DNA of 50,973 nucleotides from a virus: IMG/VR virus record IMGVR_UViG_3300033064_004871, positions 1-50,973 of that record; one strand, given 5' to 3'. Position numbers and translations under genes: made by a program. The notes under the pieces are model-generated. The model saw only the letters and a program-made list of their open reading frames with translations. It had not been told where the DNA came from and searched no databases. Position 1 is the first letter of the stretch. Every line of letters begins with the position of its first letter. This document shows positions 32,464-50,973 of the stretch, in pieces.

Positions 32464-33627
32464 TTATTTAATGACGCTTTCTAGGGTTTTAGTGTAATTT
32501 TGCACAATTGCAGTTCTTGAGAATGACTTCTTGCATTTTAATGACAACTCATTTGCCCAACCTTTTGGGACATCAAAGCTATCTCTAAACTTCTTAAGCT
32601 TCTTTTTAAAGTCTTGCTCCTTGGGATTTGCCCAACGTGAGTTTTCTACAAATATCCGTTGATCGATCTTGTTTGCAGGCACATTGACTAGATCATAGTC
32701 TATCGAGATAAACTTGCCTAAATTCATAAAATCGAGCTGGCCTGACCAGTTTGTTGTGATAACAGGTAGGCCAGCAATAGATGCATCTAATATAGGTATA
32801 CCGAAGCCTTCTCCGCGTGTAAGGCTTATAAAGCACTTGACAGATGGGTGCCTGTATACAGATGCTATCTCATGATCAGAGAGATTTCCATGCAAGACAT
32901 GAATCTTTGGAAAGCTTCCTTTTCTGAATGCGTTAAGTGCTTGTGTGATCACACTAAACACATTTTCTCTATCAATCTCTGTGCCACGCCCTAGATTTGT
33001 CTTAAGAATTAGACCCACATTTGGATCATTCTCAAATGTCTCGCAAAACCATCGTAGCGTATTGAATATATTTTTTCTATCGCCTGACTCTTCCAATGAA
33101 GTAAGCTGTGAAACAATTAAAAAGTTGAATGATGTGTCAAATTTAATTGATGTAATTGATTCAAGCGGCTCCAAGTCAAGTTCTTCTTGATACCATTCGC
33201 CAATGACTTCAATCGGCGTTGTGATTGTTCCAGATCGCATAAACGTGTTTTTTACATGCTTGCTTGGAACAATCACTAAATTCATCTTGTTGATGGCATC
33301 AATCCAGCCAGGATTACAAATATCTGTTTCAACACCTGCTGTTATGCCTATATTGAATGCAGCTAGATCAGTTGCCCATTCATCTGGAAGCTGGACTTGG
33401 AATGAAACATCAAACCCGCTTGTGTCGTTTGTCGATTGTGACATTATCTTTTCAACGTCACCATTAAATCCTGCAGGATTTATACACCATGCTGTATTGC
33501 CCCATTGAACAATTTGTGTCTTGAGTGTGATATTATCACGACTTGACAAGAATCGATATATCTGTCTAGAATGCTCGCCGTACCCAGAGATACTAAGCAT
33601 CGGCGCACGAATAACTACATTTTTCAT
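32464..33627 (-). CDS. Glycosyltransferase, GT4 family (387 aa)
   Basis: GT-B-fold retaining glycosyltransferase. An N-terminal glycine-rich turn (ISGYGEHSRQ, residues 13-22) and a C-terminal donor-binding motif, RGEGFGIPILDASIAGLPVI (271-290), are typical of GT4. The second acidic residue of the E-x7-E motif is Asp281 instead of Glu (E273). It would transfer a nucleotide-activated sugar to an acceptor not identifiable here. The gene starts at the stop of the neighbouring GT4 (TAATG), so the pair is translated together and may build one disaccharide. It marks the boundary between the virion genes and the sugar island. Confidence 0.88.
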   Translation of the reverse strand: MKNVVIRAPMLSISGYGEHSRQIYRFLSSRDNITLKTQIVQWGNTAWCINPAGFNGDVEKIMSQSTNDTSGFDVSFQVQLPDEWATDLAAFNIGITAGVETDICNPGWIDAINKMNLVIVPSKHVKNTFMRSGTITTPIEVIGEWYQEELDLEPLESITSIKFDTSFNFLIVSQLTSLEESGDRKNIFNTLRWFCETFENDPNVGLILKTNLGRGTEIDRENVFSVITQALNAFRKGSFPKIHVLHGNLSDHEIASVYRHPSVKCFISLTRGEGFGIPILDASIAGLPVITTNWSGQLDFMNLGKFISIDYDLVNVPANKIDQRIFVENSRWANPKEQDFKKKLKKFRDSFDVPKGWANELSLKCKKSFSRTAIVQNYTKTLESVIK

Positions 33628-34874
33628 TAAAATGTCCTCACTACCCAGTCTGTTTTCTTTTCACGCCACGTATTAATCAAGTTTAATGCTGTATCATGCC
33701 ATGCATCAATTGTATCCTGATAGGCGAATTCACTTGTTGCATAATCTCTAACTTTCTTTCGAAGTGCTTGCTTCTTATCATCAGGTAATTTGTACAAATC
33801 CATGATTCCCTTTGCAATGCTCTCATTAGAGACGTAATCTTCCCAAATGTAAGGAACCATTTGACTTCCAACCAAAGTCCTACAATCAACATCTAATGCA
33901 ATTCCATTTTGTGAACCGTCACGATGGTCTACAACTTGCCTCGTGAGTCCGCCTGTCTTGCAGGCAATAATAGGAACGCCTGCGCTCATTGCCTCAAGTG
34001 TTCCTAGACCAAATCCTTCTGCAAAGCTGATATTAATGCAGAAGTCTGATATATTGTAAAGAAGATTTAGCTTGTCAAATTCGATTCGTTCTTTCGAGAA
34101 GATGACATTATCTGCGATCCCAAGCATATCAGCCACTGCAACAAGGTTAGGACCTTCCTGATCAAATGGATCTGTGTGCATAACCATTGTTGCTTTCTTG
34201 TGACCCGTTTGTTTATGGAGCTCTTCAAGAAATAATTTCCAAGATACTAACACATCGCCAGGCCTCTTGCGGCGAGCATTTCTATTGATCCACATGCCAA
34301 TAAAATGATCGTCCTTATCAGGTCCTAACATGCTTCTACGATACGACTTCCTAACATGATCATCAAGAGGAAAGAAGACGTCATCAGGGATTGCATGTGG
34401 GATGAAATTTACCTTGTCGGGAAACTGGTCCTTGATTAGTTCATATGTCATGTGTGAATGACAATTAATCAAGTCAGTAGACTTATAAAAGACATCATTG
34501 AATTTTGGAAAAGGCGCATTATCCCAAACATGCCACCATGCAATGGGGCACATCTGGTGTATCTCATCTTCCATCTCAAACAACCACGTAAAGAATCGTG
34601 GGTCTGTAAAGATCAAGAGTAGATCTGGTTTTTCTGTAGCAATTGTCAACCTTAGCAGGTCTCTATTACCAAAACCGTCAATAGGCTTGATAATTAAGTC
34701 ATCATTTACGACAATTGTTCTATAGTCTGTATGCTTGACTGCAGCACCAAACTGCCTGAATGTCCAACAACTCTTCTTGATCATTCCCATTAGAAGATGT
34801 CGTGTTTGAGTGCCTACACCACTTGTTGATAAGGCGTGATCAGAGAGAACTAAAACTTTGAATTTCTTATTCAT
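33627..34874 (-). CDS. Glycosyltransferase, GT4 family (415 aa)
   Basis: Full-length GT-B enzyme. The N-terminal loop TSGVGTQTRHLL (17-28) and the donor-site motif FAEGFGLGTLEAMSAGVPII (284-303) give an intact E-x7-E pair (Glu286, Glu294). The middle shows a strongly basic turn (INRNARRKRPGD, 196-207), where diphosphate of the sugar donor is usually bound. An AGGGAG ribosome binding site precedes the ATG. It is followed by a second GT4 through a TAATG junction. The substrate cannot be predicted from sequence alone. Confidence 0.9.
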   Translation of the reverse strand: MNKKFKVLVLSDHALSTSGVGTQTRHLLMGMIKKSCWTFRQFGAAVKHTDYRTIVVNDDLIIKPIDGFGNRDLLRLTIATEKPDLLLIFTDPRFFTWLFEMEDEIHQMCPIAWWHVWDNAPFPKFNDVFYKSTDLINCHSHMTYELIKDQFPDKVNFIPHAIPDDVFFPLDDHVRKSYRRSMLGPDKDDHFIGMWINRNARRKRPGDVLVSWKLFLEELHKQTGHKKATMVMHTDPFDQEGPNLVAVADMLGIADNVIFSKERIEFDKLNLLYNISDFCINISFAEGFGLGTLEAMSAGVPIIACKTGGLTRQVVDHRDGSQNGIALDVDCRTLVGSQMVPYIWEDYVSNESIAKGIMDLYKLPDDKKQALRKKVRDYATSEFAYQDTIDAWHDTALNLINTWREKKTDWVVRTF

Positions 34875-34897
34875 GCTCCCTAATCATATGCCGTCCT

Positions 34898-35707
34898 TCA
34901 ACTGGTAAATGGCTTAAAATCATTTGATCCTGGACAACTATCAGTTGATTTGAAATCACAATATGTGCATGACATTCTATTTTTGACAGTGACGCCAGAC
35001 ATGACACCGTTGATCATTGATGAGACAAGTTTGTTTGATTTTTCCAGCATTACAGGACCTGCGGAAATTTCAACAAGCTCACAAGATTTTCCTTGTTTTG
35101 AGCCGCGCTTAAGAAGCACAAAACCGCACTTAATGTCTTTTGGATCAATTTCAAATTTCTGTGAACAATAGGATTTGTACAGTGCAATCTGTGCTTGAAC
35201 TAAAAAGTCTTGCTTTTTTTCTGTTCGCCATCCTCTAGATGAAGATGTCTTCCAGTCTATAACCCATAGACAATCTTTTCCGCGCTTGTTCTTTGCACGA
35301 ATCATACCGTCTATGAAACCCTTGAATTTGATATCATGATTTTCAATAGGCTCATATAATGCATGTTCTGCAGAAATACAAGTCCAATTTTCAAAAGTTG
35401 CATCTAAATATGCAGGTATTTCATCAAGGAGGAACAGGCCTTCCTTAAGCCATTTTTCACAATCAGCAAACTGGTGTTTGTCCCATGTCTCACGCAGAGT
35501 TTTCTCAAGACGAGCTCGATCAAATTGCCGTGTCTTCAGATAAGTTTCACATTCAGCGTGAACAATTGTTCCAAATGAGACATTAGCATTAGGCTTGAAG
35601 AGATCAATCTTATCAATGTAGACAAGCTTGTGCTTCCACGGACATTCTTTCCATGTCTTTACTTCAGAATACGATATATGAGGCTTGCCAGTAGGGAATG
35701 AGGTCAT
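34898..35707 (-). CDS. PD-(D/E)XK nuclease with Cas4/AddB-type Fe-S cysteines
   Basis: RecB-family nuclease of 269 aa. Catalytic residues are readable: His50 (GTIVHAE), Asp133 in GFIDGM, Asp151 and Lys153 in IDWKTS, followed by a Gln-containing helix (QAQIALYKSY). Cys22 plus Cys247, Cys250 and Cys258 (CTYCDFKSTDSC) have the spacing of the 4Fe-4S-binding cysteines of Cas4 and AddB nucleases. It is most likely a 5'-3' exonuclease for recombination or host DNA degradation. No Cas1, Cas2 or CRISPR array is nearby, so a CRISPR role is not supported. It is the only DNA enzyme in the sugar island. A hairpin (35713-35734) lies six bases upstream of its ATG. Confidence 0.88.
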   Translation of the reverse strand: MTSFPTGKPHISYSEVKTWKECPWKHKLVYIDKIDLFKPNANVSFGTIVHAECETYLKTRQFDRARLEKTLRETWDKHQFADCEKWLKEGLFLLDEIPAYLDATFENWTCISAEHALYEPIENHDIKFKGFIDGMIRAKNKRGKDCLWVIDWKTSSSRGWRTEKKQDFLVQAQIALYKSYCSQKFEIDPKDIKCGFVLLKRGSKQGKSCELVEISAGPVMLEKSNKLVSSMINGVMSGVTVKNRMSCTYCDFKSTDSCPGSNDFKPFTS

Positions 35708-35712
35708 AGACT

Positions 35713-35734
35713 ATTCTATGCATAATCATAGAAT
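35713..35734. repeat. 8-bp inverted repeat (hairpin) upstream of the nuclease gene
   Basis: Arms ATTCTATG (35713-35720) and CATAGAAT (35727-35734) are perfect reverse complements with a six-base loop. They lie in the 34-base gap between the dehydrogenase stop and the nuclease ATG (35707) and would form a stem ending six bases before the start codon in the mRNA. No separate strong ribosome binding site is visible, so the stem could mask translation. Arms of eight bases occur by chance, so only the location is suggestive. Confidence 0.55.
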
Positions 35735-35741
35735 TTTACAA

Positions 35742-36590
35742 CTAAGATTTTCTTGTGACTGCGCCTTTGATGTCCAGCCAGTCATGCTTTGATCTAACTT
35801 CAATATTTTTATCCCACGCAGCCTTCATGATCTTTGCATCTATTCCAATCTCATCAAAGTAATTAATAAATGCATTGATGTCTTTTGGAAAACACTTACC
35901 ACCAAATCCCATCATGCCATCATGACCTGGAACATCAATATGCGAATTTCCAATACGACCGTCTAGAAGGAAACCATTTACAGCAGTTCTCCAATCTACA
36001 CCAGTCACATCAGCTGCTTGCTTCATTTCATTCATGAATGAGACTTTTGTTGCAAAAAAGCAATTGCTCATGTACTTAATGAATTGTGCAGTCGTTACAT
36101 CTGTCTTGATGATAGGTGTATGCGGGAATCTGTCTCGGAACATTAGCTCAGCTCTATTGACAAGATCATCACGACCGCCGATGATGATCCTTGCTGCGTT
36201 GATGAAGTCGAGCTTTGCATTTCGCTCAGTCAAGAATTCTGGGCTGAAGACGATATTAAGACCTGGGTAAGACTCTACTAACTTTTCTACAGACCCAGGA
36301 ATCACTGTTGACTTAATGATAAAGATATTGTCATCTCGCTTATTGACCTTAGAGACTCTATCAAATACACTCTCAATAATTGAGAGGTCGATCTTGCCAG
36401 TCTCCAGCGACATTGGTGTGGGAACACAGACAAAAACAAACTCAGACTCATTGATTGTCTCTTCAAATGAGTCGATTGATGCCTTTGGATTCTCATCATA
36501 GACTCTTACATTTGCATGCAATGAAAATCCTGCGACAGTTGCAGAACCTACGAAACCATTTCCTATGATGCCTAAATTGTACTTTGTCAT
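35742..36590 (-). CDS. Short nucleotide-sugar (UDP-glucose type) 6-dehydrogenase
   Basis: NAD-dependent enzyme oxidising a UDP-hexose to the uronic acid. The Rossmann motif GNGFVG lies at residues 10-15, FSPEFL carries Glu118, the Lys172-Asn176 segment (FIKYMSNCF) is intact and the catalytic cysteine is Cys233 in FGGKCFPKD. At 282 aa it is much shorter than bacterial UGD/WbpA (390-440 aa): the C-terminal Rossmann-like domain is essentially missing, with only about 40 residues after the catalytic loop. Truncated versions occur in other large phages, so it may be active. The substrate could be UDP-glucose or UDP-GlcNAc. It overlaps rmlB-like gene 1 by four bases. Confidence 0.85.
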   Translation of the reverse strand: MTKYNLGIIGNGFVGSATVAGFSLHANVRVYDENPKASIDSFEETINESEFVFVCVPTPMSLETGKIDLSIIESVFDRVSKVNKRDDNIFIIKSTVIPGSVEKLVESYPGLNIVFSPEFLTERNAKLDFINAARIIIGGRDDLVNRAELMFRDRFPHTPIIKTDVTTAQFIKYMSNCFFATKVSFMNEMKQAADVTGVDWRTAVNGFLLDGRIGNSHIDVPGHDGMMGFGGKCFPKDINAFINYFDEIGIDAKIMKAAWDKNIEVRSKHDWLDIKGAVTRKS

Positions 36591-37489
36591 GAATTCTCCA
36601 CTGTTTCCTTTAATGCTGTATTAAAATTAGTAAATTCCATTTCAATAAGCCAATTGATCTTTCGACTGGTTATCCAGTACATTTTATCATGCCCAGGCCT
36701 GTCTTTGACGTAAGTTTTTAGATTGGTGTCACAATTCATTAATCCAAGTATGTGATCAACAATATCATTGTTTGTGAAAACATTGCTATCACTAATATTG
36801 TAGACGCCATCTAGGCATTCTGTTGCGATCTTGTAGATGATTTTTGCTGTGTCTTTAACATATGTCCATTGACGTTTTTGACTTCCATCACCGTAGATCG
36901 GAATATTGCTTCTTTCTCTCACAGATTTGACAATCTTGGGAATGAACTTTTCACTATGCTGTCGCTGACCAAAATTATTTGATGGTCGTACAATCTTGCA
37001 TTTAATTCCATAGGTGTTCACATATGAGAAGATCAAGTGATCTGCAGCAGCTTTTGTTGCTGCATATGGATTCTTAGGATTCAGTGGTGTTAATTCATCA
37101 AATGGAATATGAGATGCAGGCCCATAGACTTCATCTGTCGACAAGTGTATAAGCTCAATGTTGTGTTCTCTACAGACATTCAAGATTGATAGCACACCCT
37201 TGATGTTTGTCCTAACAAATGATGATGCATCGCTGATCGAATTATCGACGTGAGTCTCAGCAGCGAAATTCACAATCTTGTCAATATTATGTATTTTTAC
37301 AATTTTTTCTAATATCACAGTCTCATTGATGTCAAGGTGGTAGAACGTGCATTTATTTAGATCAATATTACCGATATTACCGGCATATGTGAGTCTATCA
37401 ACGACGACAATATTATGACCATGACGAATAAATTCATCAAATGCATGACTTCCAATAAATCCACACGCACCTGTCAATAAGAAATTCAT
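36587..37489 (-). CDS. rmlB: dTDP-glucose 4,6-dehydratase-like SDR (copy 1)
   Basis: Extended short-chain dehydrogenase of 300 aa. The NAD-binding motif TGACGFIG (residues 6-13), the dehydratase triad STDEVYG (117-123) and the catalytic Tyr142/Lys146 (PYAATKAA) all match RmlB. It would convert dTDP-glucose to dTDP-4-keto-6-deoxyglucose. The gene follows the thymidylyltransferase gene with an ATGA overlap, making a two-step rmlA-rmlB module. It is shorter than typical RmlB (about 350 aa), mainly in the C-terminal substrate region, so a related NDP-sugar substrate cannot be ruled out. Confidence 0.85.
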   Translation of the reverse strand: MNFLLTGACGFIGSHAFDEFIRHGHNIVVVDRLTYAGNIGNIDLNKCTFYHLDINETVILEKIVKIHNIDKIVNFAAETHVDNSISDASSFVRTNIKGVLSILNVCREHNIELIHLSTDEVYGPASHIPFDELTPLNPKNPYAATKAAADHLIFSYVNTYGIKCKIVRPSNNFGQRQHSEKFIPKIVKSVRERSNIPIYGDGSQKRQWTYVKDTAKIIYKIATECLDGVYNISDSNVFTNNDIVDHILGLMNCDTNLKTYVKDRPGHDKMYWITSRKINWLIEMEFTNFNTALKETVENS

Positions 37490-38211
37490 TTATTATTCAT
37501 CCCAAGCACTAATGAGAATGCTTTTTCATATGATTCAAATGTTCCTGCGTCAATCCACCAACCCGATTCTATTGTATACGTTGACGTCTTATTTTCAATG
37601 AACATGTTATTGATGTCTGTTATCTCTAGCTCATTTCTCTTTGATTTTTCGATGGAACTAATCATTGAAAATACTGAGCTATCAAACATGTAGAAACCTG
37701 TGCATGCCAAGTCACTGGGTGGCTTTATAGGCTTCTCGATGACCTTAACAAGATCATTTCCACTGAATATGCCTACACCAAATCTCTCTGGATCTGTAAC
37801 TTTGCTAAACAGCAGTTGGCATCGGATTGCATTGTCACGTGACATAAACTTCTCAACATGCACCTTAAGGCTGTGTTCAAAGATATTGTCACCGAGAAGC
37901 ACTGCTATATCACTCTCACCGGCATAGGATTCACATAGGCGTAATGCACCAGCAATTCCATCAGGACTATCTTGAATGCGATATGTGATCTCACAATCAA
38001 AGTCTTTACCAGATCCTGCAATACTTGCTATTTGACCAACATGTGGAAAGCTTGTAATAATAAGAATGTCATTTATTCCGGCACTAACAAGATTCTCAAT
38101 AGCATATTGAATCATTGGCTTTCTACCCACAGGTAGAATATGCTTATTGAAAACATTAGTGAGAGGAGATAGTCTGCTTCCTGTTCCGCCAGCGAGGATA
38201 ATGCCCTTCAT
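37486..38211 (-). CDS. rmlA: Glucose-1-phosphate thymidylyltransferase
   Basis: Sugar nucleotidyltransferase with the signature MKGIILAGGTGSRLSPLT at the N-terminus and PMIQYAIENL near residue 40; GDNIFE near residue 110 supplies the metal-binding aspartate. It would join dTTP and glucose-1-phosphate to give dTDP-glucose, the entry step for dTDP-deoxysugars. The frame is open to 38268 but the extra 19 residues do not look like the family; the ATG at 38211 starts exactly at the signature, giving 241 aa, and sits one base before the preceding gene's stop region. At 241 aa it is shorter than RmlA (about 290), so the C-terminal allosteric part is reduced. Confidence 0.9.
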   Translation of the reverse strand: MKGIILAGGTGSRLSPLTNVFNKHILPVGRKPMIQYAIENLVSAGINDILIITSFPHVGQIASIAGSGKDFDCEITYRIQDSPDGIAGALRLCESYAGESDIAVLLGDNIFEHSLKVHVEKFMSRDNAIRCQLLFSKVTDPERFGVGIFSGNDLVKVIEKPIKPPSDLACTGFYMFDSSVFSMISSIEKSKRNELEITDINNMFIENKTSTYTIESGWWIDAGTFESYEKAFSLVLGMNNK

Positions 38212-38212
38212 T

Positions 38213-39085
38213 TTAGAGCTTGTGCCCAAAATTATCATAACCCCAGAAATCAGGAGTGAGCTTTTCAATCTTGTCTAGAATGAATATAGGATGTTTGATA
38301 TTAGAAGCACTGTTGCTTGCAGCTTTCTTCTTCCTGTATCTAACATAGTCATCTATTACCTGATCATCTGTCATCCTGCTAATTGTGTTATCAAGACCCG
38401 TCGTATGCTCATAAGCATCAGCTGTCTTTCGCCAGAATTCAATAATTCTGTGTCGATTGAAAAAAGTAGCATCATAATTGATTGGCATATACTGCATATC
38501 AGCAACAATATAATGACAGTAATTTCCACTAATCTCTGCTCTACACCAGTTTCTAGGATCTTTGCTAACACTGTAATCTTTCTTATTGTTCCTAAGAAGA
38601 CTTGTATTGAATGCATAGATGTCTCTTGAGGCATTATTTAAGATAAATTTACTTTTATTGATTACGTCAATTCGCGGAAATGAGACAAGATGATATTCAT
38701 CTTTTAAGTTTTCAAGTAAATTCCTGACACCTTTTGCGTCCTGAAATACATTGTCGCTGTCGCATTTCAAAAACCAGCCATCATTGATTTCATCAAGTAC
38801 GTTTTGAATATTACATCTTATCTCATTGTACGTTTGCTCATGTTGATATGAGCAAGTTTCATTCATGAGTATTTTGATCTCGCATGTCAGCGAGAATTTC
38901 TCACGAAGCATGAGAAGTTTATCATAGCTTTCTTTTTCAAATTGTCTGTATCGAGGATTTCTTGATGCAGCAAAATTGACAATCACACAATCAGAGAAAC
39001 TTGCAAGTGATGCAATGCTCTCTGCATAAGGATATTGCAGTCGCTGGGGCTCTGCAAGCATTAAAAAAGAAGTTATCTTTGTCAT
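38213..39085 (-). CDS. GT-A-like glycosyltransferase (290 aa)
   Basis: Probable glycosyltransferase with a GT-A fold. The N-terminus begins with a beta strand and the motif DCVIVNFAASR, and the metal/donor motif is KCDSDNVF near residue 109-116, the DxD equivalent. No membrane segment is visible, so it would act in the cytoplasm. The C-terminus is charged (YRKKKAASNSASN). It lies between the PhyH dioxygenase (TAATG overlap) and rmlA, suggesting that it uses a dTDP-sugar made by this block, though that is inference. Confidence in the fold is moderate because only the DSD and strand order support it. Confidence 0.65.
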   Translation of the reverse strand: MTKITSFLMLAEPQRLQYPYAESIASLASFSDCVIVNFAASRNPRYRQFEKESYDKLLMLREKFSLTCEIKILMNETCSYQHEQTYNEIRCNIQNVLDEINDGWFLKCDSDNVFQDAKGVRNLLENLKDEYHLVSFPRIDVINKSKFILNNASRDIYAFNTSLLRNNKKDYSVSKDPRNWCRAEISGNYCHYIVADMQYMPINYDATFFNRHRIIEFWRKTADAYEHTTGLDNTISRMTDDQVIDDYVRYRKKKAASNSASNIKHPIFILDKIEKLTPDFWGYDNFGHKL

Positions 39086-39897
39086 TAAATTCCGCTGAGT
39101 GTCTTCTTAATATACGCGTTATCAGGTACATTTACTAAATTTCTATCGACAATTCTAACATACGCACATGGAAATGAACGATCAATGAATGACTTTTCAA
39201 ACATATTATCGAATCTATTACTGACTGCAATCCTTGCAGAATCACCTGCAAGTTTAGTTCTATGAATTAAGAATGTTGAGAAGATGACCACATCACCTGG
39301 ATTGCACACGACATCGACGTATCTCATTTCCTCATCATTTGTTAGTGTTATTTGACTGACATTGCTTTTAGCAGAGCATTCACGAAGTCCTTCTGTATGT
39401 GATCCAGGAATTATCTGAACTGGGTGTGCATTCTCATTCACATTTGTCAATGGAATCCACACAATTAACGAGTCAATGCTTCCTTGGATTGACGGCCAAT
39501 CTTGATGACTCGTTGTAGCAACCTTTTCTATTCCGTCATCGCTTAGCTTTTCTGAGACGATATGTGTGACTGGCGTTGTAGGTGTCGAAGGCTCAACCAC
39601 GCCAAGATCTTCTATAACACCTAGAATTTTCTCATTTAGGAAGAGTATTTGTACCTTGACTGACTTTGCAAATGTCCTGAGGTATGCTCGGTACTGTTCT
39701 GATGATTTTTGAAATGCCGACGTGAGACTTTCAATTAGTTCTATTGTGTCTTGACCCGAGATCTTGTCCATCCCGTATTTCAACGTAGCATTACATGCTA
39801 TAATATCTTGTGGATCTAGCAAACCTCTGATAATGATGACACCGTTCTTTTTGAATAATTCCTTTGCGTTGATTCGATCGTACACGTTTAGATCCAT
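39085..39897 (-). CDS. PhyH-family Fe(II)/2-oxoglutarate dioxygenase
   Basis: Phytanoyl-CoA dioxygenase-type enzyme, 270 aa. Iron ligands His131-x-Asp133 (TSHQDWPS) and His212 (FLIHRTK), with 2-oxoglutarate-binding Arg222 (SARIAVSNR), are all present; QIIPGSHTEGL is the conserved loop before the second half. It would hydroxylate or otherwise oxidise a small organic substrate, plausibly a sugar nucleotide or lipid-linked intermediate given the neighbours. It overlaps the propeller protein by ten bases and the GT-A-like gene by TAATG, so it belongs to this operon. Substrate unknown. Confidence 0.88.
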   Translation of the reverse strand: MDLNVYDRINAKELFKKNGVIIIRGLLDPQDIIACNATLKYGMDKISGQDTIELIESLTSAFQKSSEQYRAYLRTFAKSVKVQILFLNEKILGVIEDLGVVEPSTPTTPVTHIVSEKLSDDGIEKVATTSHQDWPSIQGSIDSLIVWIPLTNVNENAHPVQIIPGSHTEGLRECSAKSNVSQITLTNDEEMRYVDVVCNPGDVVIFSTFLIHRTKLAGDSARIAVSNRFDNMFEKSFIDRSFPCAYVRIVDRNLVNVPDNAYIKKTLSGI

Positions 39898-40799: not shown

Positions 40800-40801
40800 T
40801 A

Positions 40802-41416: not shown

Positions 41417-41423
41417 ATTAACC

Positions 41424-42011: not shown

Positions 42012-42022
42012 ATTTCTTCCAT

Positions 42023-43347: not shown

Positions 43348-44351
43348 TTCATTTTCTCAATGACATATAACACTTGACTTTCTGTCAATTGATCGTGTAG
43401 CGGAAAGTTTATGATCCTCTTGAATAAGTTCATTGCGACAGGTGTCTCGCGCAATGGCCTGTAGTATTTATTTGCTTCAATTCCAAGTTCTCGGAATTTT
43501 TCTTTATTGACTTCTTTTTCAAAGATGACGGGCAAATTTCCATAAATGACGTTACTGTCGTAGTTGAACAGCTCAAATCTGCTTTGAAGCTTATCAACAA
43601 AAATACTCTGTAAATGCTGATGTTTAGAGAGATTATAGTGCCGCACATGACTTAGAATGTATGCCGCAGAGATCTCAGACATTTTGAAATTAGATGAAAG
43701 TGGATCAAATTCTCTTTCGTCGTTGAAACCAAAATTGCAGATCTTATTGATCTTATCGTAATGTTTTTGCTTGACAACGACAAAACCGCCTTCACCGACG
43801 CCCAGGTATTTTGTGTGATGCAGGCTGCCAAAACTTGCATCACCAAGATTCATTAGCCCGATTCCATTGTGAGTTCCTAGCGGTGAACTTGCATTATCAA
43901 ATATGCAAATCTTTCTTTCAGACTTACACCGCGTTTGCCAGTAATCAACATCTGTCTTTGTTCCAAACAAGTTGGTGATAATGATTCCATCGACATTGTC
44001 AAGTGATGTCGATCTTGGAATAGTGTAAGTTTGTGGGTCAATATCAACAATGACTGCATCAAATCCTGCAACGCAAGGTGTAGGAAAAGTGTATGAAGGT
44101 GTCATCCAGCGCAGCTTTCTACCCAATATTTTCTCATAAAGATAGAATAGGGCATGAAGTGCAGTCGATCCATTAGAGACACAGACGACTCTTTTGTCGT
44201 CTTGAATTTGAAGCAGTGATTCCAGCTCTTTTTCCAAGATCTTCTTGACAGGCCCGTCATTTGAGAATTTCTTATATTTCTGTGAAATTGAAAGATAGCT
44301 TTCAATCTCTGGGTAAGTGAATCGCTTCTGTGCAATGTAGTCTACGTTCAT
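43344..44351 (-). CDS. DegT/DnrJ/EryC1-family sugar aminotransferase (copy 1, 335 aa)
   Basis: PLP-dependent enzyme with all key residues: NGSTALHAL (60-68) for phosphate contact, Asp152 in IFDNASS for the ring nitrogen and Lys181 in HHTKYLGVGEGGF for the Schiff base. It would convert a keto-sugar nucleotide to the amino sugar. It is shorter than typical members (about 370 aa). Its neighbours (WbqC, acyltransferase) suggest 4- or 3-amino-sugar formation followed by acylation. It overlaps the methyltransferase at 44348 by four bases. Confidence 0.9.
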   Translation of the reverse strand: MNVDYIAQKRFTYPEIESYLSISQKYKKFSNDGPVKKILEKELESLLQIQDDKRVVCVSNGSTALHALFYLYEKILGRKLRWMTPSYTFPTPCVAGFDAVIVDIDPQTYTIPRSTSLDNVDGIIITNLFGTKTDVDYWQTRCKSERKICIFDNASSPLGTHNGIGLMNLGDASFGSLHHTKYLGVGEGGFVVVKQKHYDKINKICNFGFNDEREFDPLSSNFKMSEISAAYILSHVRHYNLSKHQHLQSIFVDKLQSRFELFNYDSNVIYGNLPVIFEKEVNKEKFRELGIEANKYYRPLRETPVAMNLFKRIINFPLHDQLTESQVLYVIEKMK

Positions 44352-44980
44352 GCTTTCACAAATGTTGTTAGAATATAAAGTTGAGGAGCATCAGGCCATG
44401 ATGTTAAGAATTTAACAGACTTTAGCATTGGGTGGTCTTCTATCAATGAAGGAACTTCACAATGAATTATATCTGTGAGAGACGATCCTTTGTAGCCGTG
44501 GTTGTTAATAAGCTCGATAAATTCACGCACTGTTGGATCATCTGACCACTTGTCATTCCACATGCAAGAATACAAAAAGTTTTTTTGGCCTGCGTAGACA
44601 GCATATTCGTGCTCATCATCGTCTTTCCAACCTACTCTAAATTTTGGAAATCGCCAATGATCACCTAAACCCCAATCAATAAATAAATGCCCATCTGTGC
44701 AAAGTAGCTTCATACATCTGTCAATTAGGCTACGTGGATCTTTGCTAAAGTATGCGCATCTTGTGATGACGACAAGATCATAAGAACACGCTTCAATGTT
44801 CCATACGTCAGAATTAATGTCCCAATTTCCTAGCTGGATGTCATACAACTTTATTTCTGCATTTGGATATTTTTGATGCACAAATGAGTCTGATGTGCTA
44901 CCTAAGATTGCTACACGTTTTGCATTCTCCGGTAGATTCTTGATGTACCACGGAAATACTAGCTCATTAGATTTTCCCAT
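44348..44980 (-). CDS. SAM-dependent methyltransferase, class I (210 aa)
   Basis: Rossmann-like core: AILGSTSDSF (23-32) in place of motif I, IKLYDIQLG as the acid loop, YDLVVITRCAYFSKDP and CMKLLCTDGHLFIDWGLGDHW as the catalytic half. The GxxDxF form of motif I recalls sugar methyltransferases from surface-glycan loci. It follows the GT-A-like gene with a 14-base overlap and is coupled to the DegT aminotransferase by ATGA. Substrate unknown; probably a sugar of this pathway. Confidence 0.75.
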   Translation of the reverse strand: MGKSNELVFPWYIKNLPENAKRVAILGSTSDSFVHQKYPNAEIKLYDIQLGNWDINSDVWNIEACSYDLVVITRCAYFSKDPRSLIDRCMKLLCTDGHLFIDWGLGDHWRFPKFRVGWKDDDEHEYAVYAGQKNFLYSCMWNDKWSDDPTVREFIELINNHGYKGSSLTDIIHCEVPSLIEDHPMLKSVKFLTSWPDAPQLYILTTFVKA

Positions 44981-45770
44981 CTAACCACACACTTACCCTT
45001 GACTTCCATGCATCGACTATGGGATCAGACACAAAATTTCTTGAAAGTGATCGTCCTATGTGTGTGCATATGACAATATCACCCATGTGATATTCTTCAC
45101 CTTTCTCGTTATTCTTCAATAACTTGATCTTCCCAACTGTGTCTTCATAACGAGGTGAGATGATCTTGAGCGTCTTAGTTGTGTATCCTGCATCAATTAG
45201 TTGCTTGATCATATCACAACCTGTATCCAGAAAGAATGTTTGTGATAATTTACAGCCAAAAACCTTTGCAAGGTGCTCGTCGGCAACAAGTCTTGTCAAG
45301 CTTGGCATAAAATTGACTGATAGTGATTTAAGCACATTTGTGTCAAATGCACATGTGATGACATTTGGCCTGTCGACCATCTTGCCGTCTGTTGGGTGGT
45401 ATTCACTGCCTATCATAACAGTGAATGAGTCAAGCTGATCGATCAGACATACATCCCAGTTCTTGCAAAGAAAAGCAACATCTGCATCTACAAGGACACC
45501 AAATTTTGATGTCATATGTTCAAAGATCAGATTCAAACAATCACCATGACCTCTGCTGCCATCATGTGAAGATATCCTCTCATGATAGACAATGTCGATG
45601 TTTTCTAGATTTTTCTGTATAATGCTCCGGTCGACTCCGGCCTTATTGATTCCGACGACGTACTGATATGTGAATTTCCTTGATATTGTTCTCTCGATGG
45701 AACTGATCAGGAAGTTAGCATAATGTTCACTATTAGGACCACATGGAATTCCTATTTGTAGGTAATACAT
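44967..45770 (-). CDS. GT-A-like glycosyltransferase (267 aa)
   Basis: The core LVDADVAFLCKNWDV (about residues 92-107) provides the DxD metal site of GT-A glycosyltransferases, and the early IGIPCGPNSEHYANFLISSI matches the donor-binding start of such enzymes. The C-terminus is charged and has no membrane anchor. The open frame begins with TTG at 45773, but the adjacent ATG at 45770 overlaps the GNAT stop as TGATG and is preferred. It may add the amino-sugar built by the neighbouring genes, which is inference. Confidence 0.7.
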   Translation of the reverse strand: MYYLQIGIPCGPNSEHYANFLISSIERTISRKFTYQYVVGINKAGVDRSIIQKNLENIDIVYHERISSHDGSRGHGDCLNLIFEHMTSKFGVLVDADVAFLCKNWDVCLIDQLDSFTVMIGSEYHPTDGKMVDRPNVITCAFDTNVLKSLSVNFMPSLTRLVADEHLAKVFGCKLSQTFFLDTGCDMIKQLIDAGYTTKTLKIISPRYEDTVGKIKLLKNNEKGEEYHMGDIVICTHIGRSLSRNFVSDPIVDAWKSRVSVWLDGKI

Positions 45771-46228
45771 CAAATCACCTTATGCACCATGGTGACACAC
45801 GGCCTTTTATCAATGTTCCTCTTGATACGTCCTACCTCGATGAAACCTAGCTTCTTGTACAGATTGTAAGCAATCACATTGTCCCTAAAGACTTCAAGCC
45901 AGATCAAAACATAGCCACGGTTGTAGAGATCTTCGATTAGAAGATTGTAGGCACTTTTTGAGTGTCCCTTGCCTCTATGCTCAGGATGAATATCACATCC
46001 ACAGCAGATTGTTTCACCTGTGTCGTGACTTGTCCTAATGTACCCAACTTTTTGACCGTCAACATCAATGATAAACCACTTAGGTGAGCTTGTTCGAAAC
46101 CATGTGTATGTCGCATCTAGCGAAATCAGCTTATTGTTTCGTAGGTAGCACCTAGTTGAGCTATCATTTCTGATCTCATTCACGAATGCAAGATCATCTT
46201 CTTTCATCTCTACTAACGTAGTTGTCAT
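45770..46228 (-). CDS. GNAT-family N-acetyltransferase (152 aa)
   Basis: Typical GNAT: an N-terminal MTTTLVEMKEDDLAFVNEIR helix-strand, strand WFIIDVDGQKVGYIR (51-65), acetyl-CoA motif HRGKGHS (84-90) and the end NLYKKLGFIEVGR. The layout resembles PseH-type sugar N-acetyltransferases that act on UDP- or dTDP-amino-sugars. Directly following a DegT aminotransferase and RmlB-like dehydratase, it would finish an acetamido-sugar. A GGTGA ribosome binding site precedes the ATG, and its stop is shared with the next start. Confidence 0.85.
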   Translation of the reverse strand: MTTTLVEMKEDDLAFVNEIRNDSSTRCYLRNNKLISLDATYTWFRTSSPKWFIIDVDGQKVGYIRTSHDTGETICCGCDIHPEHRGKGHSKSAYNLLIEDLYNRGYVLIWLEVFRDNVIAYNLYKKLGFIEVGRIKRNIDKRPCVTMVHKVI

Positions 46229-46263
46229 AATTCACCACAATTCTTAATAGATTAGGACGTCAT

Positions 46264-47355
46264 TTAGTATGCATTGACTACACACACAATCTTTTCTAGA
46301 TCATTGTCAGCAAGCCAATAACCAACTGGGATATTAATCATTTTGTTGCAGAATTCTTCTGTTCCCACAAGGTCATCTTGTCTGTATTGATCAAATACAG
46401 TGTATCGATCATTCCTGACATGGACGACATCTGATGCAATCCCATGCTCGTGGAGGTATGTCTTAAAATCATCACGATCATCTGCGAGAATCGTGTAGAT
46501 CCAGTAAGAAGATTCTGCATTAGGATCCCTCCGGAGTTTTGTGAGTTTGTTATTCTTAATGTGTTTATCAAAAAACATTCCGTTCTTCTTGTGTGCTGCT
46601 ACAATGTCATTTATATACTTCATCTGCTCAAGACCAATCATCGCATTGACGTTATTCATGTGAAACTTGTAGCCTGCTTCAGTAATGTCTTGTTCCCATC
46701 GCGAGCCCGGATATTTTCTATCAAGGCCAAACCACCTGAGACGCTTGATCCTCGCATCATCTTCTGGTCTGAGTGAGCAGATTGCACCTCCATCAATTGT
46801 CGTGAGATGCTTAATTGCTTGGAATGAGAAACACACGAAGTCACTGTGCGTTCCGATAGGCTTACCCATGTAAGAAGCACCGAGAGCATGTGCAGCATCT
46901 TCAATCACGCTGATTGTAGGATCATAATCCTTGACAATGTCTGTTATTGTCTTTATATCAAATGGCTGTCCTGCCCAATGTACACCGACAACTGCTCTTG
47001 TCTTCTTAGTGAGGCGCTTCTTGACAGACTCAGGATCAATATTTCCTGTCGTAGGATCAATATCAGCAAAAACAAGTCTTGCACCTGCTAGGTGCGCAGG
47101 TTCATTTGTTGCCATACATGTCATAGGTGTAGTGATAATTTCTGTATCGCGATCAAGATTAGCAAGTTTGTATGCCAATGTCAGCGCTGAAGTTCCACTA
47201 TTAAGAAGTGAGACGTTTTTGTTGCCGACTAGCTCACCAAATTCCTTCTCAAAGGTATCAGCATAAATTCCCTCTGTTATGACACCTTCATCAAATACCT
47301 GCTGGATCTTTTGACCGATATTCGGTGGGACATGGACCTTGAATAATGGAATCAT
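46264..47355 (-). CDS. DegT/DnrJ/EryC1-family sugar aminotransferase (copy 2, 363 aa)
   Basis: Full-length member, close to perosamine/ArnB-type enzymes. Key residues: NSGTSALTL (52-60), Asp153 in IEDAAHALG and the PLP Lys182 in FQAIKHLTTIDGG; MNNVNAMIGLEQM (236-248 region) is the conserved C-terminal signature. It would transaminate a 4-keto (or 3-keto) sugar made by the RmlB-like dehydratase whose gene ends two bases before it. The pair with the GNAT forms a compact dehydratase-aminotransferase-acetyltransferase unit. Confidence 0.93.
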   Translation of the reverse strand: MIPLFKVHVPPNIGQKIQQVFDEGVITEGIYADTFEKEFGELVGNKNVSLLNSGTSALTLAYKLANLDRDTEIITTPMTCMATNEPAHLAGARLVFADIDPTTGNIDPESVKKRLTKKTRAVVGVHWAGQPFDIKTITDIVKDYDPTISVIEDAAHALGASYMGKPIGTHSDFVCFSFQAIKHLTTIDGGAICSLRPEDDARIKRLRWFGLDRKYPGSRWEQDITEAGYKFHMNNVNAMIGLEQMKYINDIVAAHKKNGMFFDKHIKNNKLTKLRRDPNAESSYWIYTILADDRDDFKTYLHEHGIASDVVHVRNDRYTVFDQYRQDDLVGTEEFCNKMINIPVGYWLADNDLEKIVCVVNAY

Positions 47356-47357
47356 AT

Positions 47358-48317
47358 TTACCGCCTGTAGAAAGAGATGATCTCAGGAAGAGCATCAGTT
47401 AGATTGCGTTGTTGTGACCAGCCTAATTGCTTGATCTTATCACAATTCAGTGCATAACGAAGATCTGCACCTGCCCTGTCTGAGCTGAAGTCTGTATTGT
47501 CATTGAAATCTAATCTTAGCGCATCGCAGACTTTTCCTACGATCTGGTTCACATTGTATTCTTCATTTGATGCAATATGATAGACTTCATTTAAGACGCC
47601 TTTATTGATCACAGTCAAAATTGCATCTACATTATCTTCAACATGAATCCAGTTTCTAACATATGAACCGTTTCCATGAATAGGAACCTTCTTGCCAGTA
47701 AGCAGCTTCGTGATTGCGCATGGAATCAATTTTTCTGGGTGCTGGTGCTTGCCGTAATTGTTTGTTGTTCGCGTCATTAAGAAAGGTATGTCATAAGTTC
47801 TTGACCATGCAAAGACAATTTGCTCAGCAGCAGATTTTGTTGCTGAGTATGGATTGCTTGCTTTGTGCCTATCGTCCTCTAGAAAGAAGCCTTCATCTAT
47901 ATCACCAAAAACTTCATCTGTGCTGATCTGCATGAATATAGGACAGTCGTATTTTTGTGCTGTGAGGCTGCTACGAAGCTTATTGTTCTTTATAATCTCA
48001 AGAATGTTGTAGACACCTTTCACATTTGAGTTCAGAAAATTAAAGCTCTCAGTGATTGAATTGTCGACATGAGACTCAGCAGCAAAATTGACAATGATAT
48101 CACATCTCGGTATCTCTTTAAGATCACAGATGTCTTTCTTTATGAACCTGTAGTGCTTTTCAAATTTTAGGCTTGTATTTGATGCATATGTGACTTTATC
48201 GATATTCGTCACAAAGTGCCCTAATGACAGACACTTTTCTATGAAATGACTTCCTATAAATCCTAAGCCTCCAGTCACTAAAAAGTGTCTAGGCTTTGTC
48301 AGTCTTTCTGCTTCCAT
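47358..48317 (-). CDS. rmlB: dTDP-glucose 4,6-dehydratase-like SDR (copy 2)
   Basis: Second RmlB-like enzyme (319 aa) with GGLGFIG (16-22), STDEVFG (132-138) and Tyr157/Lys161 (PYSATKSAA). It differs from copy 1 in sequence and length, and its NRP-type loop (RTTNNYGKHQHPEKLIP) is canonical. With the aminotransferase and GNAT downstream and a cupin upstream it could provide the keto-sugar for an amino-deoxysugar branch, while copy 1 serves the rmlA pair. The ATG at 48317 overlaps the cupin by 19 bases. Confidence 0.88.
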   Translation of the reverse strand: MEAERLTKPRHFLVTGGLGFIGSHFIEKCLSLGHFVTNIDKVTYASNTSLKFEKHYRFIKKDICDLKEIPRCDIIVNFAAESHVDNSITESFNFLNSNVKGVYNILEIIKNNKLRSSLTAQKYDCPIFMQISTDEVFGDIDEGFFLEDDRHKASNPYSATKSAAEQIVFAWSRTYDIPFLMTRTTNNYGKHQHPEKLIPCAITKLLTGKKVPIHGNGSYVRNWIHVEDNVDAILTVINKGVLNEVYHIASNEEYNVNQIVGKVCDALRLDFNDNTDFSSDRAGADLRYALNCDKIKQLGWSQQRNLTDALPEIISFYRR

Positions 48318-48736
48318 TTGTTGAAATCACTCCAAGATTTGAACTTTATTGTGTCCTGGTCATCTGGATGCCATGATGGATTTGGACAATTTAAGATGAT
48401 AGATGTCTGCTTGCTCAAATTGCGCAATTTCATAGGAATATTCTGCGGTATGATGATCAAATTTACCTGATCGTCAGCGCCATCGAAATCCAGTATGAAA
48501 TTCTCAAATTGATCATCGATCATAGTTTCTAGCGACACACACCCAGCGATGCATGTCATATATGCAGATCTTCTCTCGTGTAGAATAATGTCTTTCTCTA
48601 CACTAGGAAATAGCGATGTTGTATAGACCATCTTTGGCGTATGACCACAATTTGCGTCTATATCCCAATCACGATAGGCGGGAACCATGTGTCCGTCTTG
48701 AGTTGATATTTTAGGGATCTTCTTGATCTTGATCAT
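48299..48736 (-). CDS. RmlC-like cupin, dTDP-sugar epimerase/isomerase family (145 aa)
   Basis: Cupin-type barrel. The run MVYTTSLFPSVEKDIILHER, then YMTCIAGCVSL, followed by IIIPQNIPMKLRNLS and ILNCPNPSWHPDDQD, matches the short archaeal-style RmlC-like (dTDP-4-keto-6-deoxyglucose 3,5-epimerase) family; its length also fits FdtA/QdtA 3,4-ketoisomerases, so the exact reaction cannot be chosen by eye. The usual catalytic His is probably His53 (ILHERRSA). It connects rmlB copy 2 with the deacetylase gene, overlapping both. Confidence 0.75.
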   Translation of the reverse strand: MIKIKKIPKISTQDGHMVPAYRDWDIDANCGHTPKMVYTTSLFPSVEKDIILHERRSAYMTCIAGCVSLETMIDDQFENFILDFDGADDQVNLIIIPQNIPMKLRNLSKQTSIILNCPNPSWHPDDQDTIKFKSWSDFNKWKQKD

Positions 48737-49458
48737 ACAGCTAATTCCCTAATAAAATTAAATTGAATGTTTTTACCTCGCAGGAACTCATTTAAGCTTC
48801 CTGTAAGATTCTCATTCAAGTAATTTTTGTCCCATTGACATGCATGATAGACAATTTCATTTTGTTTGTGATCAACAAGTTCATCAAATGGTGGATTACA
48901 GTCATAATACACCACTTTACCTTTCCAATCTTCACTCTTATCTTTACCACAATATGTCTTTTGAGCATAATCTTTTGGTGAAAGAGCAAGCATCTCATAC
49001 TTTGAGTCTCTCGCAGCATCAAATGCGCCCGGTGACATTCTCCATGCAGGTGGCCTGAAGACTTTTACGAAGTGTTCTTCCATCCCTGCTTTTTTGACAA
49101 TATCATCCATCATGGCAAATTTTTCCATCGCATTTGCATAGCTGAGTTCTTGGAACTCATCATTGTCACTTCTGTGCGGGATTCCGTGATAGAGGCCATG
49201 ATAACAAATCTCAAAGTTTCTCGGTGAGAGACTTCTCATGGTTCGACAGAAATCTGGAAATCTGTTGATATGAAGCGGCTCTTGTGTCTTGGCTTCTGCG
49301 CGCATTGTTCGCCAGTAAGCAATAGGCACAAACAGCGTAAACTTGATATCAGGATAGACCTTGATCAGAGAATGACATCTATCCAGCACTTCTGTGGATG
49401 AAAGTAGGTGAGGAGAGACATCATCAATGCTTATATTGAGACGCAAAGACACACTCAA
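48733..49458 (-). CDS. Polysaccharide deacetylase-like (NodB fold) protein (241 aa)
   Basis: NodB-type metal hydrolase pattern: paired Asp12-Asp13 in ISIDDVSP, His87-x3-His91 in CYHGLYHGIPH and the arginine motif FRPPAWR (134-140). It would remove N- or O-acetyl groups from a sugar polymer or precursor. No signal peptide is present, so it probably acts on a cytoplasmic intermediate. No in-frame ATG exists at the front: candidates are TTG 49458, GTG 49452 and TTG 49446, all inside the end of the upstream GT4 gene; the conserved DD motif requires one of these. The stop overlaps the cupin start by ATGA. Confidence 0.82.
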   Translation of the reverse strand: MSVSLRLNISIDDVSPHLLSSTEVLDRCHSLIKVYPDIKFTLFVPIAYWRTMRAEAKTQEPLHINRFPDFCRTMRSLSPRNFEICYHGLYHGIPHRSDNDEFQELSYANAMEKFAMMDDIVKKAGMEEHFVKVFRPPAWRMSPGAFDAARDSKYEMLALSPKDYAQKTYCGKDKSEDWKGKVVYYDCNPPFDELVDHKQNEIVYHACQWDKNYLNENLTGSLNEFLRGKNIQFNFIRELAV

Positions 49459-50335
49459 TCATGTCAACGTAAGATTTTGCCATGATGTCTGAACTATATG
49501 TGTATTTGGGCATTTTTAACATGTTGTGTAGATCTTCTTTCTCAAGAATCTCAATCAACATTCTTGTATTATCGTATGCAAGGCCGCGTTCACTGCAATA
49601 TTCATTTATGCTGCCACCATCTGAGTGATATAGGACAGGCAATCCCATTCCCATCGCTTCAAGGACGTGATTTGCACCTGCTTCTTGTCTAGATGCAGTG
49701 ATGTAGATATCGTGTTTTGGAAGTAAGTGAAGAAGTCCTTGAATGTCTTGCGGCGGTATGTGGTTCTGTAACAGAACGTTATCAGGCTTTCTTCCAATAA
49801 ATGTGAATGTGAATTTTCCGCTTCTCTTGCAGAAATTATCAAGCTCTTCATATACGTCAAATCCTTTCATTGTGTTATTTGACCAATGATGTGTGACAAG
49901 TCGTATTGGATTGCCAAGTCTACATGATTCACGTTCAACAATAAAGTCTCTGAGAGGCGCATTTGGAATGACTGACAGATTTTTATTGTTGATCGCAGCC
50001 TTGTCTCTTGCCCATGCACTTGGAAAGATAACAAGATCGGCCATTTGTGCAGTCAGTCTAACGAGATCTAATAATTCTGGTTTTCCATGTGTCCCAAGAT
50101 CACCTACTCGCTGGATTATCTTACAACCATTGTGGGCTCTTGATTTTATGAGTCTATGAAAATCTGATTTTGTATCTGGTCGTGGGTCAAAACAAAAGAT
50201 AAGATCGACTTTTGTATCAAGCTCATATGTGACTTCATGATCACGATCCACGCACTCTTTGACTATCGCGGAAAGAACTTTAGATCCGCCGCCCCATGGC
50301 CCTGCGACAGGTTGCCTATTGAAGAATATCCTCAT
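49424..50335 (-). CDS. Glycosyltransferase, GT4 family (303 aa)
   Basis: Compact GT4. The C-terminal donor-site motif SRQEAGANHVLEAMGMGLPV has the intact E-x7-E pair (Glu218, Glu226), the N-terminus carries a glycine-rich WGGGSKVL loop, and SVIPNAPLRDF is the usual middle motif. The N-terminal acceptor domain is shorter than in the two GT4 enzymes at 32464-34874. It overlaps the deacetylase by 35 bases and the oxidoreductase stop by four (ATGA), which ties sugar transfer and deacetylation to one message. Confidence 0.88.
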   Translation of the reverse strand: MRIFFNRQPVAGPWGGGSKVLSAIVKECVDRDHEVTYELDTKVDLIFCFDPRPDTKSDFHRLIKSRAHNGCKIIQRVGDLGTHGKPELLDLVRLTAQMADLVIFPSAWARDKAAINNKNLSVIPNAPLRDFIVERESCRLGNPIRLVTHHWSNNTMKGFDVYEELDNFCKRSGKFTFTFIGRKPDNVLLQNHIPPQDIQGLLHLLPKHDIYITASRQEAGANHVLEAMGMGLPVLYHSDGGSINEYCSERGLAYDNTRMLIEILEKEDLHNMLKMPKYTYSSDIMAKSYVDMIECVFASQYKH

Positions 50336-50973
50336 CTTTCTAAGACCACCGGCATACCTTGATTCTGTGCTGACTGTCTTGCAAGTATGAACAGATGATA
50401 ATCTAACAGCGCATCTTCATATGTGTACAGGATTTTTCCATTGAGTGCTGTTGATAGGTGCATGTGAATTCCAACCTCATGATCTGTGAGCTGCGCGTCT
50501 GGTGAATTCCATTCTACAACAGAAGAATGTATCTTCACAATCCTATCTTCTTGTCTCCAGATCGTGACATCTTCAGATATTACAGTACCTGCTGCATCAA
50601 CGTAAGCCAGAATCACAGTCTCAGTGTCATTAGACTTTTCCCTAAGTGCCTGCGTAAAGATGCTTCCTGATTTTCCAAACACCTTGATACTCTGAGGTGA
50701 TCTTGTTGAAGATTTCTTAAACTCGTAATTGAACTTATGAAGTGCAATTGAGTTTGCGAATCTTAATGTGACAATATCCCAAATCTCATTTCTTTTTTGA
50801 GCCAGCTGGCCGGTAATACCACACATCATCTCATCAAGATGTATATGACCTGTTATTGTCTTTGGGATTTTCTCGGCATGATATGATCGCAGTTGTGAAA
50901 TTCCATGGTAATCGAATGTCCTGAAATCATTTTCAGAGAACACGATGTCACCGATCACACCTGAGTCGATTAC
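50332..50973 (-). CDS. Gfo/Idh/MocA-family oxidoreductase, N-terminus outside window
   Basis: C-terminal 213 residues of a frame that runs off the right edge. The opening IDSGVIGDIVFSE is the typical junction after the NAD domain in this family, and the following alpha/beta domain (MMCGITGQLAQKRNEIWD, IKVFGKSGSIFTQ) matches its substrate half. Members oxidise NDP-sugars, for example at C3 in the route to diamino-uronic acids, so it fits beside the UGD-like dehydrogenase and DegT enzymes. GTG at 50958 is only an internal codon; there is no evidence it is a start. Confidence 0.7.
   Translation of the reverse strand, partial: VIDSGVIGDIVFSENDFRTFDYHGISQLRSYHAEKIPKTITGHIHLDEMMCGITGQLAQKRNEIWDIVTLRFANSIALHKFNYEFKKSSTRSPQSIKVFGKSGSIFTQALREKSNDTETVILAYVDAAGTVISEDVTIWRQEDRIVKIHSSVVEWNSPDAQLTDHEVGIHMHLSTALNGKILYTYEDALLDYHLFILARQSAQNQGMPVVLER

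Follow-up and report, generated by a model that had tools for sequence, protein, structure and literature searches.

A conserved nuclease–glycosyltransferase block and an exchangeable sugar-synthesis cassette beside the baseplate genes of a phage lineage

The window analysed here is the complete IMG/VR virus record IMGVR_UViG_3300033064_004871, a linear fragment of 50,973 bases. A terminase large-subunit gene is cut at one end and a Gfo/Idh/MocA gene at the other; the DNA in between encodes an SbcD–SbcC-like protein, a primase and RuvC, an extended series of tail proteins, and baseplate proteins of gp25/gp6 type. The original prediction had described positions 32464-50973 as one 18.5-kb sugar island of about 20 consecutive co-directional genes, joined directly to baseplate and sigma-factor genes. 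We count 23 open reading frames (ORFs) there, all on the minus strand and mostly overlapping by a few bases. Gene content and co-direction agree with a sugar island, but it divides into a core block of a nuclease and two glycosyltransferases (GTs) and an exchangeable sugar-synthesis cassette. The island extends at least 1.5 kb beyond the window's end, as seen in contig L051.

An assembly join at 32464, the artefact that the original prediction had named, is ruled out. The independent 24.2-kb contig IMGVR_UViG_3300032607_001821 matches window positions 28270-50973 at 99.8-99.95% identity across the junction, G+C content does not shift and base composition stays steady, and the co-directional run continues from the island into the baseplate genes as a single gene run. 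The linkage of island and baseplate genes is therefore real, because two separate assemblies carry it. PHROGs supports the identity of gp25 (baseplate wedge). The sigma-factor part of the claim fared less well: the ORF at 31457-32251 is a conserved neighbour with no PHROG or Pfam match, and its sigma identity is unconfirmed. Counts of T4-late promoters (TATAAATA) or sigma-70 promoters around the island were not above those in shuffled sequences.

The core block consists of three genes:

32464-33627, minus strand: GT4a, GT4-family glycosyltransferase, lineage core (Pfam Glycos_transf_1 3.4e-8; phrog_2170 2.3e-19)
33627-34874, minus strand: GT4b, GT4-family glycosyltransferase, lineage core (Pfam 4.2e-12)
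34898-35707, minus strand: PD-(D/E)XK (PDDEXK) exonuclease, core, not a sugar gene, although it had been counted within the sugar island (PF12705 6e-21; phrog_1218 exonuclease)

Every relative with coverage shows the gene order PDDEXK–GT4b–GT4a–h5–'sigma'–h4–gp5like–gp25–wedge. Flavobacterium phage immuto shares the nuclease–GT4b–GT4a order, as does Microcystis phage Mel-JY01, where an additional GuaB gene interrupts the series and GT4b is represented by two ORFs; in Rhodothermus phage RM378, homologues of GT4b and GT4a follow a gene annotated as DNA-polymerase-I-like. The two annotated ORFs of the Mel-JY01 GT4b homologue (L060:7998-9489) point to a frameshift or a sequencing error in the published genome. 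A GT4b profile matched 21 of 24 records (12 of 12 in a first set, 9 of 12 in a second). The core status of GT4b is thus not absolute, but the three records without a match (G016, G022 and G026) are all fragments. In the more distant phages G016 and G017 the UGD–sigma neighbourhood has no adjoining GT block, and GT4b of G017 lies elsewhere. Pairwise identity tracks that of the baseplate wedge for GT4a (r = 0.92) and GT4b (r = 0.85; n = 21), whereas that of UGD, the neighbouring nucleotide-sugar dehydrogenase, does not (r = 0.28, n = 12).

The conserved residues of the nuclease are D133, D151, K153 and four cysteines (C22, C247, C250 and C258), which suggests a Cas4/AddB-like iron–sulphur cluster. 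An AlphaFold2 (AF2) model of GT4b, computed from an alignment built without sequences from the phage records, has a GT-B fold with a predicted local distance difference test score (pLDDT) of 88; its nearest Protein Data Bank (PDB) structures are MshA (TM-score 0.71) and then the chlorovirus NY2A GT. In its E-x7-E motif, E286 is invariant and E294 is conserved at 90% or more. The best fold matches of GT4b are small-molecule, lipopolysaccharide (LPS) and sugar GT4 enzymes together with the chlorovirus GT; T4 AGT and BGT are absent from the top 50.

Phages without the cassette show the core block by itself. Five such contigs (G008, G009, G010, G011 and L045) have tail proteins directly before the PDDEXK gene and no intervening sugar gene, and the two longest ones checked (G008 and G011) lack any GT4 gene besides GT4b and GT4a. 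The sugar islands are hypervariable between related phages and occupy a fixed site, with UGD at most four genes from PDDEXK in 13 of 15 island-bearing contigs. Where the far edge is visible, the island spans ~10 to 27 kb and is preceded by tail-fibre-like genes (G001, G002, G004 and G007) or by a PhoH-like gene (G005).

Comparison of close relatives revealed an exchange of the cassette. Contig L003 matches the window at 98.8-98.9% identity for 19 kb, after which homology ends at 36566, 24 bases inside UGD. L004/G013, at 86.8% identity to the window, loses homology at the same base, and beyond it L003 and G013 resemble each other (82%). L003 thus combines a window-like backbone with a G013-type cassette. 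A chimeric L003 contig is unlikely, since the independent G013 shares the UGD junction. Homology between G013 and the window returns at 44601-47244 (86.6%), covering MT3, GTA2, GNAT and DegT1. G013 is without the window's RmlB1, RmlA, GTA1, PhyH, propeller-like, MT1, MT2, LbH, WbqC and DegT2 genes and carries in their place an unassigned protein, a methyltransferase, NeuB, a second methyltransferase, a NeuA-type cytidylyltransferase, a 2-hydroxyacid dehydrogenase and a GT2 gene. The swap thus covers ~36.57-44.6 kb, between homologous flanks, and sets genes of a deoxythymidine diphosphate (dTDP)-viosamine type against genes of a nonulosonate type. NeuB also occurs in G003, G005 and LR756508. 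Unswapped island genes are under purifying selection, with ratios of nonsynonymous to synonymous substitution rates (dN/dS) of 0.04-0.17. As read from these alignments, the sugar-synthesis part of the island is an exchangeable cassette and the island is composite. Beyond the core block, the window carries the following features:

35742-36590, minus strand: short UGD-like nucleotide-sugar dehydrogenase without the C-terminal uridine diphosphate (UDP) domain (PF03721, PF00984; TIGR03026 177.9 bits against a cut-off of 189.8)
36567-44600, minus strand: exchangeable cassette, viosamine-type allele, replaced by the NeuB/NeuA allele in G013
36587-37489, minus strand: RmlB1, dTDP-glucose 4,6-dehydratase (TIGR01181 1.5e-87, 293.7 bits, cut-off 365.1; PDB dTDP-glucose 4,6-dehydratases)
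37486-38211, minus strand: RmlA, glucose-1-phosphate thymidylyltransferase (PDB 3hl3 8e-69; TIGR01208/TIGR01207; start set at the conserved MKGIILAGG)
38213-39085, minus strand: GTA1, putative GT-A-like transferase (DxD by eye; no Pfam, PHROG or PDB match)
39085-39897, minus strand: PhyH-type 2-oxoglutarate dioxygenase (PF05721 1.9e-12)
39888-40826, minus strand: unassigned, possibly beta-propeller glycosidase-like (by eye only; no profile or credible PDB match)
40802-41455, minus strand: methyltransferase MT1 (PF13578 1.2e-11)
41424-42011, minus strand: methyltransferase-like MT2 (PF08241 5.5e-4, just under the cut-off)
42023-42691, minus strand: LbH acyltransferase, NeuD/PglB/VioB type (TIGR03570 3.4e-43, 147.6 bits against a cut-off of 160.8)
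42688-43347, minus strand: WbqC-family protein (PF08889 4.2e-60)
43344-44351, minus strand: DegT2, sugar aminotransferase, closest to Mimivirus L136 (PDB 7mfo/7mfp 7e-49)
44348-44980, minus strand: MT3, methyltransferase-like, holding the second crossover (no Pfam match; identity to the G013 homologue declines along the gene and DNA homology ends at 44601)
44967-45773, minus strand: GTA2, putative GT-A-like transferase (DxD by eye; no Pfam, PHROG or PDB match; dN/dS 0.17, purifying selection)
45770-46228, minus strand: GNAT N-acetyltransferase, PseH/RimI-like (PF00583 1.5e-15)
46264-47355, minus strand: DegT1, sugar aminotransferase (PF01041 4.6e-82; PDB 4zwv, 4xau, CalS13 4zas)
47358-48317, minus strand: RmlB2, dTDP-glucose 4,6-dehydratase (TIGR01181 1.6e-92, 310 bits, cut-off 365.1; PDB 2hun)
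48299-48736, minus strand: FdtA/WxcM-like cupin (PF05523 26.6 bits against a cut-off of 23; no PDB match)
48733-49458, minus strand: DUF2334 polysaccharide-deacetylase-like protein (PF10096 2e-11)
49424-50335, minus strand: GT4c, GT4-family glycosyltransferase (PF13692 27.2 bits against 27; phrog_2170; homologues in many related islands)
50332-50973, minus strand: Gfo/Idh/MocA oxidoreductase, cut by the contig end (full-length copy L051:1070-2143, PF01408 2.1e-6)

Most assignments of the original prediction were borne out. Hidden Markov models or structure–sequence comparisons support RmlA, both RmlB copies (their best model, TIGR01181, scoring below its cut-off), the cupin, both DegT proteins and the UGD-like enzyme; profiles support GNAT, LbH, PhyH and the deacetylase; and the full-length Gfo/Idh/MocA copy in an independent contig scores above the Pfam cut-off. 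Among the three proposed methyltransferases, MT1 is above the cut-off, MT2 falls just below it and MT3 has no Pfam match. At least five GTs had been proposed: the three GT4 proteins have profile support, but GTA1 and GTA2 are GT-like by eye only, and an AF2 prediction of GTA1 without an alignment was uninformative (pLDDT 36). WbqC recurs in four other islands, beside DegT in two of them; a literature search yielded no function for it. The gene order RmlB–DegT–GNAT–GT4 is also found in the bacterial contig L153. When relatives of DegT1 in genome contigs were used for host prediction, they came from a mixture of bacteria (Omnitrophota, an alphaproteobacterium, Caldithrix, KSB1 and Legionella) and singled out no host.

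Together, the cassette contains the 4,6-dehydratase, L136-type aminotransferase and NeuD/VioB-type acyltransferase set of the viosamine (L136/VioA–VioB) pathway. RmlA/RmlB, DegT2 and LbH suggest an N-acylated viosamine, and DegT1 with RmlB2 and GNAT suggests a second amino sugar. In the proposed chemistry, RmlA and RmlB would supply dTDP-4-keto-6-deoxyglucose, which DegT2, LbH, WbqC and the methyltransferases would convert into an acylated, methylated viosamine-like sugar, and RmlB2, the cupin, DegT1 and GNAT would make the second one.

The acceptor had been left between virion, host surface and DNA, and this choice can be narrowed. Remodelling of the host surface, in which phage sugars and transferases would alter LPS or capsule through the host's lipid carrier, flippase and ligase, and so block rival phages or the adsorption of progeny to debris, is the main rival to a virion acceptor, and we hold it possible but doubtful. 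The O-antigen-like repertoire fits it, including the DUF2334 deacetylase and the nonulosonate alleles, and the same interpretation has been published for cyanophage clusters (PMC7824862), for P-SSM2 (PMC2984593) and for the host-recognition clusters of pelagimyophages, which hold tail fibres, GTs, UGD and rfaE (PMC7029224). However, a simple hydropathy scan found no protein with two or more transmembrane segments among the 23 window ORFs or 206 ORFs of relatives (14 contigs), while 3 of 6 bacterial control contigs encoded polytopic proteins. The O-antigen flippase that the original prediction proposed to search for did not turn up either: the Wzx profile PF01943 matched 0 of 20 records (controls 13 of 14), and the phosphoglycosyltransferase profile PF02397 also matched 0 of 20 (controls 9 of 14). 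The whole pathway therefore seems to run in the cytosol, unless export is provided by the host, and the absence of membrane-embedded proteins from 15 islands argues against a self-contained O-antigen-like surface pathway. The co-direction of the island with baseplate genes and the retention of the core GT pair in phages without a sugar cassette also speak against a surface role.

DNA glycosylation, with the core GT pair modifying bases of phage DNA, the cassette providing sugars and the nuclease acting in the same pathway, appears unlikely. It would agree with the position of PDDEXK beside GT4b in most of the lineage, with the DNA-polymerase-I-like gene found there in RM378 and with phage GTs able to modify DNA (as cited in PMC12619734). 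Yet, in the search for hypermodified-base enzymes, a thymidylate-synthase-fold hydroxymethylase gene, present in immuto, G007 and LR756508, was found in none of four GT4b-bearing phages, the complete Mel-JY01 and RM378 genomes, G004 (137 kb) and G011 (153 kb). Its absence from complete GT4b phages argues against T4-style glucosylation based on hydroxymethylcytosine or hydroxymethyluracil, as does the lack of T4 AGT and BGT among the top 50 GT4b folds. The Tet_JBP oxygenase profile matched 0 of 20 records, with its controls also silent. More improbable still is that the cassette was picked up from bacteria and serves neither the particle nor the host surface, or that it makes a diffusible product. 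The LPS genes of cyanophages have been interpreted as 'stuffer DNA' (PMC3037559), and a second cyanophage cluster as making a secondary metabolite (PMC7824862), but the purifying selection and conserved order of the unswapped genes, and the recurrence of independent islands at one site, disfavour both.

Two candidate acceptors are left, a protein of the virion or the surface pathway of the host itself. The virion is favoured by the persistence of the core where the cassette is missing, by the link to tail genes and by the direction shared with the baseplate genes, and we give it roughly even chances. We suggest, with about as much confidence as doubt, that these genes form a glycan-assembly module in a lineage of large phages with T4-like tails, that they glycosylate a virion protein, probably a tail protein, in the cytosol, and that cassette exchange switches the sugar. 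GT4a and GT4b, encoded between tail-fibre and baseplate genes, would act in the host cytosol and attach a sugar to a virion protein, the likeliest target being a tail fibre or another component of the tail, and the cassette would make unusual nucleotide sugars that extend or decorate the attached sugar. Homologous recombination in the flanking UGD and MT3 genes would swap the cassette, giving the same backbone chemically different sugars; the phage could benefit by evading recognition of its particles or by binding receptors differently. More tentatively, the whole lineage, widespread in aquatic habitats, may share a tail-glycosylation system in which an ancient GT4 pair adds the initial sugar, while the terminal one (viosamine-type or nonulosonic-acid-type) is exchanged by cassette recombination between otherwise near-identical phages, a viral counterpart of bacterial serotype switching. 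Precedents for virion glycans include the capsid and tail tube of mycobacteriophages (as cited in PMC12619734) and the viosamine of Mimivirus fibrils, made by L136, R141 and L142 (PMC10117803).

Several observations weigh against a virion acceptor. The GT blocks of immuto and Mel-JY01 do not adjoin baseplate genes, and adjacency to tail fibres is known from relatives only, the window contig stopping before any fibre gene. A virion role does not account for the steady linkage of the GT pair to the nuclease. The gene repertoire would also fit an O-antigen locus, and published authors interpret similar islands in this way. Finally, we infer the acceptor, the identity of the sugars and the benefit alike from gene data.

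Sugar islands of marine myophages, some beside tail fibres, and moraphage core GTs (PMC12619734) are already published. The pelagimyophage host-recognition cluster (PMC7029224) is similar in being a hypervariable island with tail fibres, GTs, UDP-glucose dehydrogenase and rfaE in the structural region of large marine myophages. Those phages belong to another lineage, a wedge search in phage records having matched only Flavobacterium, Microcystis and uncultured phages; in the window's lineage the island is bounded by the core nuclease–GT4–GT4 block, its cassette is exchanged between near-identical genomes, and no membrane proteins were found in it. Cyanophage LPS clusters (P-SSM2 and S-SSM7; PMC3037559, PMC2984593) and jumbo cyanophage clusters (PMC7824862) likewise belong to marine T4-like phages and are rich in genes for nucleotide sugars and GTs, but lie near hli03 or phoH, have not been reported to border on a lineage-core GT pair and are read as acting on the host surface. 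Moraphages, compared by description, are large aquatic phages whose core genome holds four putative GTs together with a sigma factor and genes for the baseplate; the passages of PMC12619734 consulted describe no cassette anatomy. Mycobacteriophages also encode GTs that act on virion proteins, and are set apart by description, not sequence, in that the passage on them in PMC12619734 mentions no large sugar-synthesis cassette. The Mimivirus viosamine pathway (L136, R141 and L142; PMC10117803) shares the L136-type aminotransferase, 4,6-dehydratase, N-acyltransferase, methyltransferase and GTs. Its virus-made sugar sits on the particle, as proposed for the window phage. The phage set additionally has WbqC and PhyH; because it includes RmlA, dTDP rather than UDP sugars are likely. 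What this analysis adds is the distinction of a core nuclease–GT4–GT4 block from a cassette that can be exchanged, together with phages whose site is empty, the swap of alleles between near-identical genomes and the lack of membrane proteins.

Marine phage sugar islands have been known for ~20 years and have usually been taken, without test, as host-surface remodelling. This lineage offers natural controls, phages with the GT pair and no cassette, and cultured relatives with the pair, the Flavobacterium immuto phages and Microcystis phage Mel-JY01. As the core pair is also separable from the cassettes, the acceptor question is directly testable. If the virion is the acceptor, cassette recombination would change the surface chemistry of the particle.

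Further observations concern the islands and the rest of the window. In all five contigs with a visible far edge, the first island gene (G001_80, G002_2, G004_33, G005_92 and G007_5) encodes a protein of 500-650 amino acids with the shared N-terminal motif DLF..DY.GGAELTT.ALI. By eye, relatives' islands contain split transketolase-like gene pairs (G005_105/106 and G007_20/21) and HldE-like nucleotidyltransferases, hinting at heptose-like sugars. The short UGD-like family (280-330 amino acids, without the C-terminal UDP-binding domain) occurs in several marine phage groups, adjoining different sugar islands (window 35742-36590; L129-L136). At 1740-4850 on the minus strand, a 1,036-amino-acid ORF joins an N-terminal calcineurin-like phosphoesterase to an SbcC-type AAA/Walker B region, a fused SbcD–SbcC (Mre11–Rad50, T4 gp47–gp46). 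In the tail region, the 1,154-amino-acid protein at 22547-26011 has a concanavalin-A-like (Laminin_G_3) domain and may be a part of the tail that binds carbohydrate. Towards the C-terminal end of the gp5-like baseplate gene, a short segment has been replaced between near-identical phages, with 33 bases in the window (29988-30020) against 123 in L003 (L003:8382-8504).

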